Source of the DNA: Pseudacidobacterium ailaaui
GTDB taxonomy: Bacteria; Acidobacteriota; Terriglobia; Terriglobales; Acidobacteriaceae
Direction: 5' to 3'
Length of the DNA: 64,000 nucleotides
Assembly: GCF_000688455.1 (NCBI RefSeq)
Contig: NZ_JIAL01000001.1
Coordinates: 2,511,001 to 2,575,000 of the forward strand
Program-made: the position numbers and the translations under genes
Notes under the pieces: generated by a model
Databases searched by the model: none
What the model was told of the DNA's origin: nothing
What the model saw: only the letters and a program-made list of their open reading frames with translations
Part shown: positions 17,451 through 24,286 of the stretch, piece after piece
How the letters are laid out: every line of letters begins with the position of its first letter
How positions within the stretch are numbered: the stretch's first letter is position 1

Positions 17451-20400
17451 ATGAAATCGGTAGGCCGGGGTCTTCTTGCCTTTCTGGCGGTAGTTTTCAT
17501 GATTGCTGTGACGATGTTGCCGCTTACGGTCCATGCTCAGGCCGTTTCCGCGACATTATTGGGCAGCATCACTGATAAGACCGGGGCGAGCATCCCCAAC
17601 GCAAGAATTGTTATCCATGAGCTTTCTACTGGCATCCAGCATGAAACAGTAACTAATGGAAGTGGTAACTACACCTTCCCCGACCTGCCACCGGGTGCAT
17701 ACTCCGTTACAGCAGAAGCCACCGGATTCAAGAAGGAAACCCGTGCTAGCGTGGATGTTGTTGTAAATACCGCTACGCGTGTAGACCTGGAGCTTGAGCC
17801 CGGAAGCGCTACAGAAACCATCACGGTGACGGATGTTCCTCCGATTCTGCAAACAGACCGTGCTGATGTGAGCACGAAGTTTGAGGCGCGTCATGTGGAG
17901 GACATGCCATTGAGCGTAAACCGTAATTTTCAAGGCTTGTTGAATCTGGTGCCGGGAACGACGCCCGCCACGTTTCAGCACTCACAATTTTTTAATGCGC
18001 AGAGCTCGCTTCAGACAGAAGTAAATGGGATACCCCGGATGGGGAACAGTTATCAGATTGAAGGGATTGATGACGATGAGCGGACCGGTCTGCTGCAAAT
18101 CATGATTCCACCTGCTGATGCCATACAGACAGTAGACATTTCTACCAACAACTTCGAAGCAGAGCTGGGCCGCGCCATTGGAGCAGTGACCAATGTGACA
18201 TTAAAGTCCGGTTCCAATGCTTTTCATGGTTCGGCGATTGAATATCTGCAAAATAGTGCGTTTGACGCGCGATCATATTTCAGCAAAAAAGTCGGCCATG
18301 TAGCTTACAACTACTTTGGCGGGAACTTCAGTGGCCCGATCATTCGAAACAAGCTTTTCTTTTACGGGGACTACTATCGCACATCCGATCATGAGGCCAA
18401 TTCCAATACACTCACCATTCCTCCCAAAGAGTTTTATACGCCGAATGCGAATGGTTACATTGATTTGAGCGCGCCTTTGAAGAGCGATGGTACGGGCCAG
18501 ATTTACGACCCGAATACGGGAAACCCTGATGGCAGTGGGAGGACACCATTCCCGAACAATCAGATTCCCTTCAATCGGGTCAATCCTGTTTCCTTAAAGC
18601 TGCTGCAGCTTCTGCCAGCTGAGATCCCGGGTAGCTCGCTCGCGGCACCCAGTAACAACTACTTTGCTGTGCTGCCCTTTCAGAAGACGGCAGATTCATA
18701 TGACGCGAAGATTGATGCACAGCTTACTGAGAAAGACCATCTGAGCGGTCGATTCAGTTATCAGCATGTGAGTGTATTTCAGGCACCGGTTTTTGGAGAC
18801 ATTGCCGGTGGTCCGGCGCAGGGAGCATTTGAAGGAACGGGAATCCAGAATGCCATGAGCACTGGAGTCAATTATGACCGTGCATTTTCGGCCACATTGC
18901 TTACCGAGGTCCGTATTGGCGTTGCGCACTACCACAACGATGCGACGCCGGCAGGGTATGGCCATGACTATGCAACGCAGATTGGTGTTCCTGGCGTGAA
19001 TATCAGTCAGTTCACAAGCGGACAGGTAGGGATTGATCTGGGATCGTTCAGCAGTCCGATTATCGGGTACTCAGCATCATTGCCGTGGAGGCGTGGTGAA
19101 GCGAATATTGATTTCGTTAATCACTGGACAAAAATCCTCGGCAACCACACTTTCAAGTTTGGTGGAGACCTGCGCCGGGTCCAGGACAATCTACTGCAGG
19201 ATCAGACTTTCAGTCCGCGCGGAGTGATTCAGTTCCGCGAAAATCAGACTTCGATCAAGGGCGGCAAGACGAACGTCGCCAATGATATGGCCAGCTTTCT
19301 TCTGGATGTACCGAGTCAGGTGGGACGCGACATCAACACTTACTCTCCGGCGTATCGGCAGTGGTGGTTGTTTCTTTTTGCGGGAGATAAATGGCAGGCC
19401 TCTTCTAAATTGACCTTGGACCTTGGACTACGCTGGGAGTTTTATCCTCCAGCTACGCCTGGCAAAGCCGGCGGGTTTTCCAATTATGATCCAACAACCA
19501 GTACGCTGGTCATTGCTGGAGTGGGGAACAATCCTTCAAACCTTGGCATGAAAACACGCTACACCTATTTTGCGCCGCGTACAGGGTTTGCCTTCCGCGC
19601 AACGGACAAGACGGTGCTGCGAGGCGGATTTGGCATCAGCTATATGCCCTTTCCTGACAATACTTACGCTTACAACTATCCAGTGCGCGCCAACAACAGT
19701 TATCAGCCGCTGGGTGCTTATACCGCTGCTGTATTGGACAATGGCCAGATTGCTACATTCCAGGCAGGATTTCCGGCGCCGAAGCCAATCGAGGTCCCCT
19801 CAAATGGTTTGCTGGCTGCGCCTAAGAACCAGTCTTATGTCGTAATTCCGAAGGACTATCAGAATCCTTATGTAGAGTCATGGAATGTTGCTCTGGAGCA
19901 GGCCTTGGCCGGGCAGTTCACCATGCAGCTGTCCTATGTGGGCAATCATGGTGTCCGTATTGGTGCGGCACAGAACATAAACCTGCCACCCGCGCTGGGA
20001 TTGGGTCCGACCGCAGAACCAGAGGCCATTGCGTTTGGCCGTACTGCCGCTACCAACGTGTATTTCCTTGGCTTTTCATCGAATTATCAGGCGCTTCAGG
20101 CGCAGCTTCGGCGGAGATTTACCAATGGTCTGGCCACAGAAACCGCGTTTACCTGGGGTAAAGGGCTCGGCTACCAAAGCGGCGATGATGGAGGATTGAC
20201 CTTCTGGATTGATCAGCGCCGCAACTATGCTCCTAACGACTATGATCGTCGCCTGAACTTTGAGGAGAGCTTTACGTATGAGTTGCCATTTGGAAAAGGA
20301 AAGCGTTGGCTGAACCGAGGCGTTTCCTCTGTTGCCTTCGGAGGATGGAAACTGTCAGGCATCATTTCCATTGTGTCAGGAACGCCATTTACGGTGACTG

Positions 20401-20843
20401 CAAATGGTGGCTCAATCAATACACCCGGTCAAACGCAGACGGCAAACCTGGTGAAGCCCTTCCATGTCCTTCATGGAATTGGTCCGGGCAGGTCATGGTT
20501 TGATATCACCAGCTTTGCTCAGCCGGTGGGATGCACCGGCACCCCTTGTGCTGTTCAGTATGGAATCACGATGGGCAATACCGGGCGCAACCAGTTCTAT
20601 GGGCCGGGTTTTATTCAGGACAACGTTTCTGCCTTTAAGACCTTTCCTCTTTGGGAAAGCCTGACACTGGAGACCCGTGTGGACGCCTTTCAGCTAAGCA
20701 ATACGCCGCAATTTGCAAATCCAAGCTCTTCTTATACCAGCAGCACGTTTGGTCAGGTCACTTCCACCATTGGCAGCGGATCGGGTGTGAATGGGACCGG
20801 AGGCGGTCGCGCACTTCAGCTCTCTGGAAAGATTCGGTTTTAA
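17451..20843 (+). CDS. TonB-dependent receptor, Oar-like, with carboxypeptidase-regulatory-like domain
   Basis: 1130 aa; start set by GAGGAGG 4 nt before ATG. A signal peptide ending in V-H-A-Q-A is followed by a carboxypeptidase-regulatory-like beta sandwich (about 35-125; G-S-I-T-D-K-T-G-A-S-I-P-N-A, Y-T-F-P-D-L-P-P-G-A-Y), a plug domain (about 125-250) and a large outer-membrane barrel with repeated Y/F-rich strands to the C-terminal F. Such receptors move large ligands, often saccharides, across the outer membrane using TonB. Three sugar-type genes follow on the same strand with gaps of about 107, 4 and 17 bp, so a carbohydrate ligand is likely. No TonB box was assigned. Confidence 0.9.
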   Translation: MKSVGRGLLAFLAVVFMIAVTMLPLTVHAQAVSATLLGSITDKTGASIPNARIVIHELSTGIQHETVTNGSGNYTFPDLPPGAYSVTAEATGFKKETRASVDVVVNTATRVDLELEPGSATETITVTDVPPILQTDRADVSTKFEARHVEDMPLSVNRNFQGLLNLVPGTTPATFQHSQFFNAQSSLQTEVNGIPRMGNSYQIEGIDDDERTGLLQIMIPPADAIQTVDISTNNFEAELGRAIGAVTNVTLKSGSNAFHGSAIEYLQNSAFDARSYFSKKVGHVAYNYFGGNFSGPIIRNKLFFYGDYYRTSDHEANSNTLTIPPKEFYTPNANGYIDLSAPLKSDGTGQIYDPNTGNPDGSGRTPFPNNQIPFNRVNPVSLKLLQLLPAEIPGSSLAAPSNNYFAVLPFQKTADSYDAKIDAQLTEKDHLSGRFSYQHVSVFQAPVFGDIAGGPAQGAFEGTGIQNAMSTGVNYDRAFSATLLTEVRIGVAHYHNDATPAGYGHDYATQIGVPGVNISQFTSGQVGIDLGSFSSPIIGYSASLPWRRGEANIDFVNHWTKILGNHTFKFGGDLRRVQDNLLQDQTFSPRGVIQFRENQTSIKGGKTNVANDMASFLLDVPSQVGRDINTYSPAYRQWWLFLFAGDKWQASSKLTLDLGLRWEFYPPATPGKAGGFSNYDPTTSTLVIAGVGNNPSNLGMKTRYTYFAPRTGFAFRATDKTVLRGGFGISYMPFPDNTYAYNYPVRANNSYQPLGAYTAAVLDNGQIATFQAGFPAPKPIEVPSNGLLAAPKNQSYVVIPKDYQNPYVESWNVALEQALAGQFTMQLSYVGNHGVRIGAAQNINLPPALGLGPTAEPEAIAFGRTAATNVYFLGFSSNYQALQAQLRRRFTNGLATETAFTWGKGLGYQSGDDGGLTFWIDQRRNYAPNDYDRRLNFEESFTYELPFGKGKRWLNRGVSSVAFGGWKLSGIISIVSGTPFTVTANGGSINTPGQTQTANLVKPFHVLHGIGPGRSWFDITSFAQPVGCTGTPCAVQYGITMGNTGRNQFYGPGFIQDNVSAFKTFPLWESLTLETRVDAFQLSNTPQFANPSSSYTSSTFGQVTSTIGSGSGVNGTGGGRALQLSGKIRF

Positions 20844-20950
20844 TGACAGAGATACCGGTTTCCGGTACAGAAGTGACGGGCCAGTTTTCCCAATGTAAAA
20901 AAATCATGCGAACGGTTTACCATGAATTTGTCTGCAATGCAGGAGGTTGA

Positions 20951-21916
20951 ATGTCGACGTCGCGCCGCGCGTTCCTGGCCGGATTTGCTGCAACCGGAGT
21001 CATGTCTCAGATGCGAGTCATGGCCCAGCGCATGAAAAACTGCCCCTTCCGTCTTTCAGTCATCAACGACGAGATAAGCCAGGATTTTGACCATGCCTGC
21101 TTCGTGGCGGCCAATGATTTCGGCCTGGACTGGATTGAACTCCGCGGGATGTGGAACAAGAACATCAGCAATCTGGATGCGAGTGAAATTGCGGAGTCGC
21201 AGCGCATTCTTTCGAAATATAAGCTGCGCGTAACAGACATCGCGAGTCCGCTATTTAAGACCGACTGGCCTGGGGCCCCAGTTTCAAAGTTTTCCGAGCA
21301 CCGCGACCAGTTTAAAGCCAGCTTCGATTTCAAGCAGCAGGATGAGCTGCTGGATACCTGTATTGAACTGGCCAAAGCTTTCAAGACTGAGCGGATCCGG
21401 TGCTTTGATTTCTGGCGGTTGGACGATCCGCAGAAATACCGTGCGGCCATCAACGACAAGCTGCGCGAAGCCGCGGCAAAATGTGCAAAGCACAATCTGA
21501 TTCTTGTGCTGGAAAATGAGATGTCCTGCAATACCGCCACTGGAGAAGAGGCAGCAGCTGTCCTTAAGGCCATTCCCGACAGAAATTTCATGTTGAACTG
21601 GGATCCAGGCAATGCGGCAACTTTTCCTGACAACACACCCTATCCCAATGGATATGATCGATTGCCCAAAGACCGCATTGGCCATTGCCATTGCAAAGAT
21701 GTGAAACGCCTGGCCGGTGGGAAATATGAATGGGCCCCGGTCGGAGCCGGTGTTGTGGACTGGGTAGGTCAATTCCGGGCCTTGAAGCGTGATGGCTATC
21801 ACTACGCAGTGAGTCTGGAAACACACTGGCGTGGTGCAGGAACTCCGGAGGCTTCAACGCGCATCAGCATGAAAGGCCTGAAGGACACATTGCAAAAGGC
21901 CGGAATCGAGTGCTGA
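20951..21916 (+). CDS. Tat-exported sugar phosphate isomerase/epimerase-like TIM-barrel protein
   Basis: 321 aa, with a twin-arginine signal M-S-T-S-R-R-A-F-L-A-G-F, so it is exported folded. The mature part is a xylose-isomerase-like TIM barrel (AP endonuclease 2 superfamily): E-L-R-G-M-W early, V-L-E-N-E-M, N-W-D-P-G-N-A and H-C-K-D near the C-terminus, then S-L-E-T-H-W. These Glu, Asp and His positions are where the family binds a divalent metal. Members in such clusters isomerise or epimerise keto sugars. The start has AGGAGG upstream (AGGAGGTTGA-ATG). It is followed 4 bp later by apbE, a tight operon link. Confidence 0.87.
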   Translation: MSTSRRAFLAGFAATGVMSQMRVMAQRMKNCPFRLSVINDEISQDFDHACFVAANDFGLDWIELRGMWNKNISNLDASEIAESQRILSKYKLRVTDIASPLFKTDWPGAPVSKFSEHRDQFKASFDFKQQDELLDTCIELAKAFKTERIRCFDFWRLDDPQKYRAAINDKLREAAAKCAKHNLILVLENEMSCNTATGEEAAAVLKAIPDRNFMLNWDPGNAATFPDNTPYPNGYDRLPKDRIGHCHCKDVKRLAGGKYEWAPVGAGVVDWVGQFRALKRDGYHYAVSLETHWRGAGTPEASTRISMKGLKDTLQKAGIEC

Positions 21917-21920
21917 GGCC

Positions 21921-22940
21921 GTGTCCTGGAAGCTTACGTTTTTGCTTTCCTTGCTGTGCAGCATAGGCTGCAATGCTTTGGCGCAAAGCAAGCCGCAGCT
22001 TTTCACGATTACGCATCCGGCAATGGGTACGGTCTTCACCTTATACATTTATGCAGGCAGCAGGGAAGAGGCTGATGCTAAGGCAAATCCTGTTTTTGAT
22101 GAGATTGACCGGCTGGATGACCTGCTCAGCAACTATAAGGAAACCAGCGAGCTTTCCCGCATCAACCGTCTGGCAGCCATACAACCGGTCACAACAGATC
22201 CAGAAACATTTCAGTTCCTGGCTGAGGCCCTTGACTGGAGTGCGCGAAGTGATGGTGCATTTGATATTACCGTAGGAAAACTGATGAAGGCGTGGGGATT
22301 CTTCCGCAAACAAGGGCGCGTTCCCATGCCGGCGGAATTTGCGACACTACGCAAGCAAACCGGATGGCAAAAAGTCAGACTGAATGCCGCCAGGCGTACC
22401 ATTCGATTTACCTCGCCGGGGATTGAGCTTGATCCAGGAGGTATTGGCAAGGGTTTTGCTGTTGACAAGGCCGTCAGCATACTTCGCTCAGAGCAAGTTG
22501 CGGCTGCAATGTTGTCGGCGGGCAGCAGCACAATCTACGCTTTAGGTGCGCCTCCGGGGGAGACCGGGTGGAAGGTGGAGGTCCCGGACCCCCGCAATCC
22601 TGCAATTGTGCTTTCGACAGTTACATTAAAGGACATGTCGCTTTCAAGCGCCAATTGCTCTGAGAAGCATTTTGTTCTGAATGGTCATCTCTATTGCCAC
22701 ATTATGGACCCGAAGATGCTGCGGCCTGTAGAAGGGATGTTACAAGTAACGGTAACGGACCCGTCGGCCACGAATAGTGATGCTCTGTCGAATATTTTGT
22801 TTGTCAGAAACCCAGAAGACAGCAGAGCGTTGATGCACTCACTGCCTGAAGATTCTGCACTTGTGATTGCCGGAACACAACAGAAATCCGTTTGCTATTT
22901 GATGAACTGGAAGGCCCCGGTGGCTCCAGGCCACTGCTGA
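21921..22940 (+). CDS. apbE: FAD:protein FMN transferase (ApbE family)
   Basis: 339 aa from GTG 21921 with a signal peptide (M-S-W-K-L-T-F-L-L-S-L-L, cleavage after A-L-A). ApbE proteins split FAD and attach FMN covalently to Thr/Ser of exported electron-transfer proteins. Family features: T-H-P-A-M-G-T-V-F-T near the start, F-D-I-T-V-G-K-L-M-K-A-W-G-F, the L-D-P-G-G-I-G-K-G-F-A-V-D-K motif, H-I-M-D-P-K in place of the common H-I-I-D-P, and D-A-L-S-N near the end where the metal-binding Asp lies. No obvious flavinylated target is encoded next to it. Placement between an isomerase and a Gfo/Idh enzyme is unusual. Confidence 0.9.
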   Translation: MSWKLTFLLSLLCSIGCNALAQSKPQLFTITHPAMGTVFTLYIYAGSREEADAKANPVFDEIDRLDDLLSNYKETSELSRINRLAAIQPVTTDPETFQFLAEALDWSARSDGAFDITVGKLMKAWGFFRKQGRVPMPAEFATLRKQTGWQKVRLNAARRTIRFTSPGIELDPGGIGKGFAVDKAVSILRSEQVAAAMLSAGSSTIYALGAPPGETGWKVEVPDPRNPAIVLSTVTLKDMSLSSANCSEKHFVLNGHLYCHIMDPKMLRPVEGMLQVTVTDPSATNSDALSNILFVRNPEDSRALMHSLPEDSALVIAGTQQKSVCYLMNWKAPVAPGHC

Positions 22941-22957
22941 AGTGAGGGACAAGAAAC

Positions 22958-24193
22958 ATGAACCGCAGAGAATTTGTGCAAGGTATTTCCAGCGCCGCTG
23001 TTACGGGCGCGGTACTTCGTACTTCCGGGGCGAAGGCGCTTTCCGCCAATGACCGCGTACGCGTGGGAGTCATCGGCCCGGGTAGCCGCGGGCAGGAGCT
23101 GATCCGCCAGCTTCTGCATCTTCCTGGTGTTGAAATTGCAGCGGTGTGTGATGTCTATGATCCTCGTTTTGCTCAGGTGAACCATCTGGTAGGCAGACAG
23201 GTGCCTGGATATCAAGACTACCGACAGCTGCTTGCGCGCAAGGACCTGGATGCAGTTGTGGTATCTACTCCGGTTTCGCTCCATGCAGAGCATGTCATTG
23301 CCGCCGTTCGTAGTGGGCGGCCGGTGTATGGAGAAAAAGCGCTCGGATTCACCCCGGAGGATTGCAGAAAGATTGTGACCGAGGTAGAGAAAAGCGGGCA
23401 GGTCTTTCAGATTGGTCACGAATATCGCTATGCAGCCTGGGTACAGGAGAGCATCAAGCGCGTTCATGAAGGCCGCATCGGAGAGCCCACACATATCTAT
23501 GCTTATTGGCATCGTAATAACAATTGGCGCAGACCAGTTCCGCAGCCTGATCCGGAAGGCAAGTTGGAACATCTGATTAACTGGCGGCTCTACCGCGAGA
23601 CATCGGGCGGTCTATTGACCGAGCTTGGCTCACATCACATTGATCTTGCTAACTGGGTCTTTGGCGAGCAACCATCCAGTGTGCTGGGAACCACCAGTAT
23701 TGTGAAGTATCACGATGGCCGAACGGTGGGCGACAATGTGCAGGCGGTCTTCAAATATTCCAAAGGCAGACGGCTCTTCTTCAGTTCGCTGACAGACAAC
23801 GCTTCCTTAGGGAACCAGCTCTGGATCTACGGTACCGAAGGGAGTGTACAACTGACGATTGAAGATGCAACCTTCTATTACGAACCCAAAACGCACCACG
23901 CAACGCTTGCACAGGAGACTGTAATCCAGCGAGGAATTACTACTGGTGCCTCTTATCAAACCAAAAATGAGATGCCCTATCGCGGCCCCGGGGAAAAAGT
24001 GAATACCCCAGACGCCGAAGACCCGACTTTGGCCTCGTTGCGGTCGTTTATCGAGTGTGTTCGGACCAGGCAGAGGCCCTTTGCCGATGTCTATGTCGGT
24101 TATGCCTCTGCAATTGCGACTTCGATTGGAAACCAGGCCTTGGTAGAAGACAATGTTCTTGCAATTCCGAAAGCCGACCAGCCAGCCCGATAA
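22958..24193 (+). CDS. Tat-exported Gfo/Idh/MocA family oxidoreductase
   Basis: 411 aa. The N-terminus M-N-R-R-E-F-V-Q-G-I is a twin-arginine signal, followed by a Rossmann fold (V-G-V-I-G-P-G-S-R-G) that holds NAD(P) and the catalytic-type E-K-A loop (E-K-P in most relatives). The C-terminal substrate domain has L-G-S-H-H-I-D-L-A-N-W, the usual His/Asp pair. Exported relatives such as Zymomonas glucose-fructose oxidoreductase carry their cofactor through the Tat pore. With the TIM-barrel isomerase of the same operon it probably oxidises or interconverts a sugar, perhaps at C3, in the periplasm. Substrate is not determined. Confidence 0.9.
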   Translation: MNRREFVQGISSAAVTGAVLRTSGAKALSANDRVRVGVIGPGSRGQELIRQLLHLPGVEIAAVCDVYDPRFAQVNHLVGRQVPGYQDYRQLLARKDLDAVVVSTPVSLHAEHVIAAVRSGRPVYGEKALGFTPEDCRKIVTEVEKSGQVFQIGHEYRYAAWVQESIKRVHEGRIGEPTHIYAYWHRNNNWRRPVPQPDPEGKLEHLINWRLYRETSGGLLTELGSHHIDLANWVFGEQPSSVLGTTSIVKYHDGRTVGDNVQAVFKYSKGRRLFFSSLTDNASLGNQLWIYGTEGSVQLTIEDATFYYEPKTHHATLAQETVIQRGITTGASYQTKNEMPYRGPGEKVNTPDAEDPTLASLRSFIECVRTRQRPFADVYVGYASAIATSIGNQALVEDNVLAIPKADQPAR

Positions 24194-24209: not shown

Positions 24210-24286
24210 TGGTAGGCGAGGCAGGGATCGAACCTGCAACCTACGGCTTAGAAGGCCGTTGCTCTATCCAATTGAGCTACTCGCCC
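24210..24286 (-). tRNA. tRNA-Arg (anticodon TCT)
   Basis: A 77-nt cloverleaf on the minus strand: acceptor GGGCGAG / CTCGCCT, D arm GCTCAATTGGATAGAGC, anticodon loop C-T-TCT-A-A, T arm with GGTTCGATCC, and CCA encoded. It decodes AGA. Its first ten bases contain the stop codon of the upstream gene at 24277. Confidence 0.96.

Follow-up and report, generated by a model that had tools for sequence, protein, structure and literature searches.

Glucose-fructose oxidoreductase (GFOR) is an exported enzyme whose nicotinamide cofactor stays bound outside the cytoplasm and is reoxidised by the enzyme itself with fructose, and it is not known to have an ApbE partner. Likewise, the oxidoreductive sulfoquinovosidases are not known to carry a covalent flavin. 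Here we describe a Gfo/Idh oxidoreductase of Pseudacidobacterium ailaaui that is encoded directly behind a gene for ApbE, a flavin adenine dinucleotide (FAD):protein flavin mononucleotide (FMN) transferase. Both genes are located in a stretch of 64,000 nucleotides of contig NZ_JIAL01000001.1, called the window in the following, and all coordinates are positions within this window. The window protein shares the Gfo/Idh fold with GFOR (1h6d; Z 36, 17% identity), and the top rows of the VIA-align structural comparison are sulfoquinovosidases that depend on nicotinamide adenine dinucleotide (NAD), matched with Z of about 39 and a root-mean-square deviation of 2.4-2.5, yet at 22% identity (8qc8, 8qc2, and 8qc5). 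Flavinylation by ApbE has been demonstrated for DUF2271 and DUF3570 proteins by co-expression and by Thr/Ser to Ala exchanges, as given in the accessible text of Meheust et al. (2021, PMC8238504). The same text terms genomes with apbE but without a known substrate orphan (4% of the genomes surveyed), gives the target motif as [S/T]GA[S/T], and infers further substrates. These proteins share with the window locus an orphan apbE beside a gene with a conserved [S/T]GA[S/T] motif, but the substrate proposed here, inferred from sequence, is a Gfo/Idh oxidoreductase of the NAD type. The enzymes of PMC11334425 are similar in that a fold gained an inserted or appended segment bearing a flavinylation motif and has apbE nearby; unlike Gfo/Idh, which binds NAD(P), these folds bind flavin non-covalently in relatives. 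The 3-keto-glycoside pathway (BT2157 and LacABC with DUF1080, PMC9007349) has periplasmic sugar oxidation in common with the proposed system, and a hydrolase-type gene is found near many Bacteroidota homologues of the window protein. However, the window protein scores far below the BT2158 and BT2159 cut-offs, and ApbE is not mentioned in the main text of PMC9007349.

The explanation that we regard as the best overall, and as likely judging from the sequences, is that apbE and the Gfo/Idh gene encode an enzyme-substrate pair with a self-flavin relay. The Gfo/Idh protein would very probably be flavinylated by ApbE at Ser332, because the two genes are linked and co-occur, FMN_bind and DUF3570 proteins are absent, and the motif is conserved across phyla. 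ApbE, acting outside the cytoplasm, would move FMN from FAD onto Ser332 in a flexible loop of Gfo/Idh. The Gfo/Idh protein, exported in the folded state by twin-arginine translocation (Tat), would carry bound NAD through export and would use it to oxidise a sugar or glycoside, and the trapped NADH would be reoxidised via the enzyme's own covalent FMN with the electrons passing on to an outside acceptor. For this relay from NADH to FMN to acceptor we see an even chance. An ApbE-flavinylated Gfo/Idh protein was not found described, and its novelty is provisional. Gfo and MocA are not mentioned in the main texts of PMC8238504, PMC11334425, and PMC12052999, and the open-access literature (subscription journals and supplements were out of reach) yielded no link between ApbE and Gfo/Idh, nothing pairing flavinylation with Gfo or ApbE flavinylation with Acidobacteria, and nothing matching sulfoquinovosidase together with oxidoreductive and NADH. 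The only open-access co-mention of ApbE and Gfo came from a seaweed transcript comparison (PMC3207994). The features of the locus are as follows:

17451-20843, plus strand: Oar/SusC-like outer-membrane receptor with N-terminal carboxypeptidase-regulatory domain (OMP_b-brl_4, PF25183, 2.7e-214; CarboxypepD_reg, PF13620, 2.3e-22)
20951-21916, plus strand: xylose-isomerase-like TIM barrel with twin-arginine-type N-terminus, judged by eye (AP_endonuc_2, PF01261, 2.6e-30)
21921-22940, plus strand: ApbE, FAD:protein FMN transferase, GTG start, Sec-type N-terminus, judged by eye (PF02424, 7.4e-70)
22958-24193, plus strand: twin-arginine Gfo/Idh oxidoreductase, the proposed ApbE substrate (PF01408, PF02894, PF22725)
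23933-23953, plus strand: GITTGAS codons, residues 326-332, proposed FMN attachment loop (Ser332 at 23951-23953)
24210-24286, minus strand: tRNA-Arg, following the four-gene group

Conservation was assessed in two samples, namely 100 relatives (60 of them in family f1) and 299 genomes of the class, for which the ApbE and Gfo/Idh proteins of the window served as queries. In the class sample, ApbE matches below 1e-90 and Gfo/Idh matches below 1e-120 are found in an identical set of 27 genomes, although both cut-offs were chosen after inspecting the lists and in many genomes only part of the first-look Gfo/Idh candidates were scored. Among the relatives, both genes are present in the same six of the 60 f1 genomes. 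The samples overlap in two pair genomes, and their union comprises 31 genomes with close ApbE and Gfo/Idh homologues. The 27 pair genomes belong to nine genera and are not independent events because the genomes are related. Weaker ApbE matches are widespread (148 of 299 class genomes at 1e-25). In 30 of the 31 Terriglobia genomes ApbE is located directly upstream of Gfo/Idh, in line with the original prediction that the two belong together. The exception, G278, is a natural split of the pair: a receptor homologue, the isomerase, and Gfo/Idh are found in this order without apbE (L056), and the ApbE of this genome (58% identical) is encoded 1.3 Mb away (L055). According to the neighbourhoods, for which genes were called with a home-made gene caller (L091 yielded no calls), Gfo/Idh is the only neighbour common to the close ApbE loci. 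The genes flanking the pair are common to some close genomes and vary between genera. The isomerase has homologues in seven loci including the window, and the complete order of receptor, isomerase, ApbE, and Gfo/Idh is present only in the window and in L068. The four-gene unit proposed before was therefore too large, recurring in just one of the 30 other inspected genomes, and was dropped as the conserved unit. The conserved unit is apbE with Gfo/Idh; the receptor and the TIM barrel are optional local add-ons.

The pairing extends beyond these close homologues. At 16 loci, from other Terriglobia families and one f1 genome (G059), the order is reversed, with Gfo/Idh proteins that are 31-38% identical to the window protein and are encoded immediately before apbE, and in G171 an ApbE precedes a more distant Gfo/Idh as well. 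L093 was excluded from the pair alignment for having three genes between its Gfo/Idh and ApbE. A contig scan with an alignment of six Gfo/Idh proteins resulted in 80 distant loci, some from genomes already sampled, which belong to Acidobacteriota, Bacteroidota, Armatimonadota, Calditrichota, and others. Of these 80 loci as fetched, 17 contain ApbE, and it adjoins Gfo/Idh homologues of other phyla or classes in L178, L174, L186, L171, L139, and L140. In Dyadobacter (L178), ApbE starts three bases past a Gfo/Idh gene that bears DGVTGAT. The genomes of 40 of the 80 distant loci were searched for PF02424, and 38 of these contain it.

The second line of evidence is the motif. The window Gfo/Idh contains TGAS ending at Ser332, which fits the [S/T]GA[S/T] type of ApbE target. 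The close homologues have [TA][GST]AS in 31 of 31 cases (TGAS 18, TSAS 9, TTAS 3, AGAS 1), the reverse-order homologues AGAT in 16 of 16 (in 14 cases within [DN]W[WM]AGAT), and seventeen homologues from families f6 and f13 A[GSN][ASP][ST] at the same place. Among the 78 full-enough distant homologues, 39, mostly from Bacteroidota, have D[GA][VY][STA][GS]A[ST], and in 33 of these a Ser or Thr precedes the Gly position (D[GA][VY][ST][GS]A[ST], e.g. DGVSGAT or DGVTGAT). All motif types end at one column, that of Ser332, in the joint alignment, which was made by us and may favour the alignment of motifs. After thinning 143 rows at 90% identity, 112 homologues remained, of which 70 have Thr, 38 Ser, and four another residue in this column (Ser/Thr 108 of 112); the preceding residue is Ala in 101. 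Most loop columns on either side of the site vary much more. Left out of these rows as out-of-family paralogues were the two L110 proteins, which lack the site, and L112, which has Lys in the aligned column, with which the count becomes 108 of 115, and the fragments L124 and L166 (at most 300 residues). With the border between family and control open reading frames set by us at 250 bits, D-x-x-[ST][GS][AS][ST] is found in 33 of 144 family and none of 38 other Gfo/Idh reading frames from the same loci, D[GAI][VYLI][STA][GS]A[ST] in 39 compared to none, and the loose [STA]GA[ST] in 102 compared to five. In the AlphaFold model of the window protein, built with 43 sequences, the mean predicted local distance difference test (pLDDT) score is 88 and that of residues 326-333 is below 50. 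Similarly, DGVAGAT of L154 (residues 319-325) is located in a stretch of pLDDT below 50. A disordered motif loop would offer the flexibility that a protein-modifying enzyme needs.

Several observations weigh against flavinylation at this site. The window protein does not have the full motif D-x-x-[S/T]-G-A-[S/T] in the form of PMC12052999, because Gly replaces Asp, and it uses Ser instead of Thr. In 12 of the 31 close homologues Ser or Thr replaces the motif Gly. The loose form is also found in 166 of 2131 unrelated reading frames; since it is present in five of the 38 control Gfo/Idh proteins too, the window motif by itself proves little. PF02424 is present in seven of 14 unrelated control genomes. 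G364 keeps the site as TAAT (L142) with no ApbE found in the genome record, and the Terriglobia genome G056 encodes a weaker homologue with SGES and no ApbE. Conversely, ApbE is adjacent to Gfo/Idh proteins without Ser/Thr in the aligned column (L139, L140) or with an irregular motif (L171), and the genome of L141 encodes ApbE while the site is absent. In several further f1 genomes, a more distant ApbE is not accompanied by a close Gfo/Idh. Finally, the TSG and TG signatures usual in ApbE are altered, judged by eye, in proteins of the window type. According to the accessible text of PMC12052999, exchange of the upstream Asp to Ala has a minor effect, and Ser is accepted by ApbE less efficiently than Thr. 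The window GITTGAS should therefore be usable though not optimal. In two genomes ApbE and the site are missing together: G378 has no ApbE and has lost the Ser/Thr (AGPN, L162), and the Terriglobia genome G238 has neither. In G113, which has no match to the window query at 1e-25, and in G322 and G342, which have weak ones, PF02424 is present. L111 was dropped as a negative control; its loop seemed deleted, but ApbE is located directly upstream and the site reads GGPS. In the Armatimonadota loci L139, L140, and L160, LDAxxT or LDGTAT is found close to the site in place of GA[ST], which is possibly a variant ApbE target.

The four open reading frames of the window are arranged operon-like on one strand with intervening gaps of 107, 4, and 17 bases, and with Pfam matches to all four, the genes and families that had been named beforehand were recovered. 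The same is true for the twin-arginine signals claimed for the TIM barrel and Gfo/Idh, which are SRRAFL and NRREFV at the respective N-termini as read by eye, and the latter supports the predicted export of Gfo/Idh. In 43 Gfo/Idh homologues R3 is invariant and R4 is conserved in at least 90%. The NCBIfam Tat model did not match any window protein at E<=0.001, and it scores above its cut-off in L114 and in a neighbour of L156. Those 43 homologues also have invariant G40, G42, G45, D65, and E126-K127, among them the glycines of the Rossmann GxGxxG and the EK pair, and all three Pfam domains, including the C-terminal ones, are above their cut-offs. The NAD-site residues are intact in the sequence, and Gfo/Idh is therefore likely exported folded with NAD bound. 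The enzyme could be flavinylated as proposed but act as a redox-neutral, NAD-dependent glycosidase of the sulfoquinovosidase type, in which FMN would only rescue an accidental NADH form. This alternative, which includes the same substrate claim, is suggested by the sulfoquinovosidases at the top of the VIA-align rows. However, a common fold does not reveal the function, and levoglucosan dehydrogenase, 1,5-AF reductase, and GFOR follow within about three Z units, while the Foldseek ranking starts with RgNanOx instead. In addition, oxidoreductive glycosidases are not known to need a flavin. A redox-neutral glycosidase thus seems unlikely, although it deserves serious consideration.

It had been suggested from the window that ApbE might flavinylate a separate electron carrier. 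Accordingly worded, the alternative is that such an exported carrier is encoded elsewhere and reoxidises Gfo/Idh, whose own motif would be coincidental. Most of the ApbE-flavinylated proteins described in the accessible text of PMC8238504 are indeed electron-transfer proteins. Our search covered FMN_bind, DUF3570, and DUF2271, and Flavodoxin_4, FMN_red, PF00890, and NqrB/RnfD were outside it, which leaves some room for a carrier. FMN_bind was absent from 26 of the 27 pair genomes including the own genome, DUF3570 was absent from all 27, and DUF2271 was absent from the own genome, the only one searched for it. The ApbE proteins of these 26 genomes are therefore without FMN_bind and DUF3570 as known substrates. 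The single DNA pattern for D-x-x-T-G-A-T applied to the own genome did not result in a candidate carrier (three matches compared to six for the reversed control). Taken with Gfo/Idh itself bearing the motif, being the sole shared neighbour of the close ApbE loci, and having Bacteroidota homologues with canonical motifs at the same column, a separate carrier as the target is improbable, and this part of the original prediction was changed in favour of Gfo/Idh.

The ApbE of the window matches PF02424 with 235.9 bits (gathering score 25.6), it matches the FMN transferase 7esa in the PDB (1.3e-34), and a search of its own genome with it at E<=0.001 gave no match other than itself. It keeps the His of HIxDP and the Asp of DAL, the candidates for the catalytic His and the Mg-site Asp, with altered neighbouring signatures, the equivalence to Vibrio His257 being assigned by eye. 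It is hard to imagine that this protein is a divergent FAD hydrolase or an inactive relative, linked to Gfo/Idh for a reason other than flavinylation: the altered TSG and TG signatures and the exchange of the DAL aspartate to Glu in six of 16 reverse-order ApbE proteins would fit, but 58 of 59 aligned ApbE proteins retain the HIxDP histidine, all 31 close ones have the DAL aspartate, and the PF02424 match is strong. Two other apbE contexts were seen in the class. In family f6 (L042, 6707-16278, checked with Pfam, and L048) a related apbE belongs to the gene series nusA-infB-rbfA-apbE-hemE-amine-oxidase-like, where a flavin transferase would hardly be expected, and the Gfo/Idh matches of these genomes are located away from it. 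A 41% identical ApbE together with FMN_bind and PepSY_TM forms an ordinary ApbE locus in L046 (5831-10012, checked with Pfam) and L047.

The neighbourhoods of the distant homologues speak for oxidation of a sugar, glycoside, or uronate. In 17 of 55 loci (L139-L193), mostly from Bacteroidota, a gene of the 3-keto-disaccharide-hydrolase type is at most three genes away from Gfo/Idh; the hydrolase-cluster member that was checked matches PF06439 (2e-92). These loci usually contain a second Gfo/Idh; for the one that was scanned, the best NCBIfam match is BT2158, below cut-off. A keto-sugar setting, as supposed in the original prediction, is therefore plausible, but the window protein itself is not a BT2158/BT2159 equivalog. 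Its membership was rejected based on 70 bits for BT_2158_fam (NF058561, cut-off 750) and 34 bits for BT_2159_fam (cut-off 650). That the window protein is an ordinary enzyme of a periplasmic 3-keto-glycoside pathway of the BT2158/BT2159/DUF1080 type, next to which apbE is located by chance, for which the hydrolase-type genes and two PF06439 matches in the own genome, both away from the locus, could be put forward, is highly unlikely given these scores and an adjacency of apbE in nearly all pair genomes that is hard to ascribe to chance. The TIM barrel of the window is not assigned by any NCBIfam equivalog above cut-off and has no PDB sequence match at 0.001; a second xylose-isomerase-like TIM barrel was seen in L034 (11807-12703) and L037, which also hold the first one. 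Eight mostly flavobacterial loci (L144, L153, L157, L161, L169, L179, L189, and L192; only L144 was checked with Pfam) combine a Gfo/Idh relative with UxuA and an SDR, six of them also with a UxaC-type and two with a hydrolase-type gene, pointing to uronates as substrates in those relatives.

The Gfo/Idh family is represented in Acidobacteriota, Bacteroidota, Armatimonadota, and Calditrichota and is a concrete candidate substrate for orphan apbE genes. It is possible, though we would put it slightly below an even chance, that these proteins constitute a multi-phylum family of exported dehydrogenases whose single polypeptide carries both bound NAD and a covalent FMN attached by ApbE, and which regenerate their own trapped cofactor and pass electrons from sugar oxidation outside the cytoplasm to respiration. 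If this is true, a Gfo/Idh family with NAD and covalent FMN would explain some of the genomes in which ApbE is still an orphan, and it would offer an answer to the question of how exported NAD-dependent sugar dehydrogenases shed their electrons without a soluble NAD pool outside the cytoplasm.

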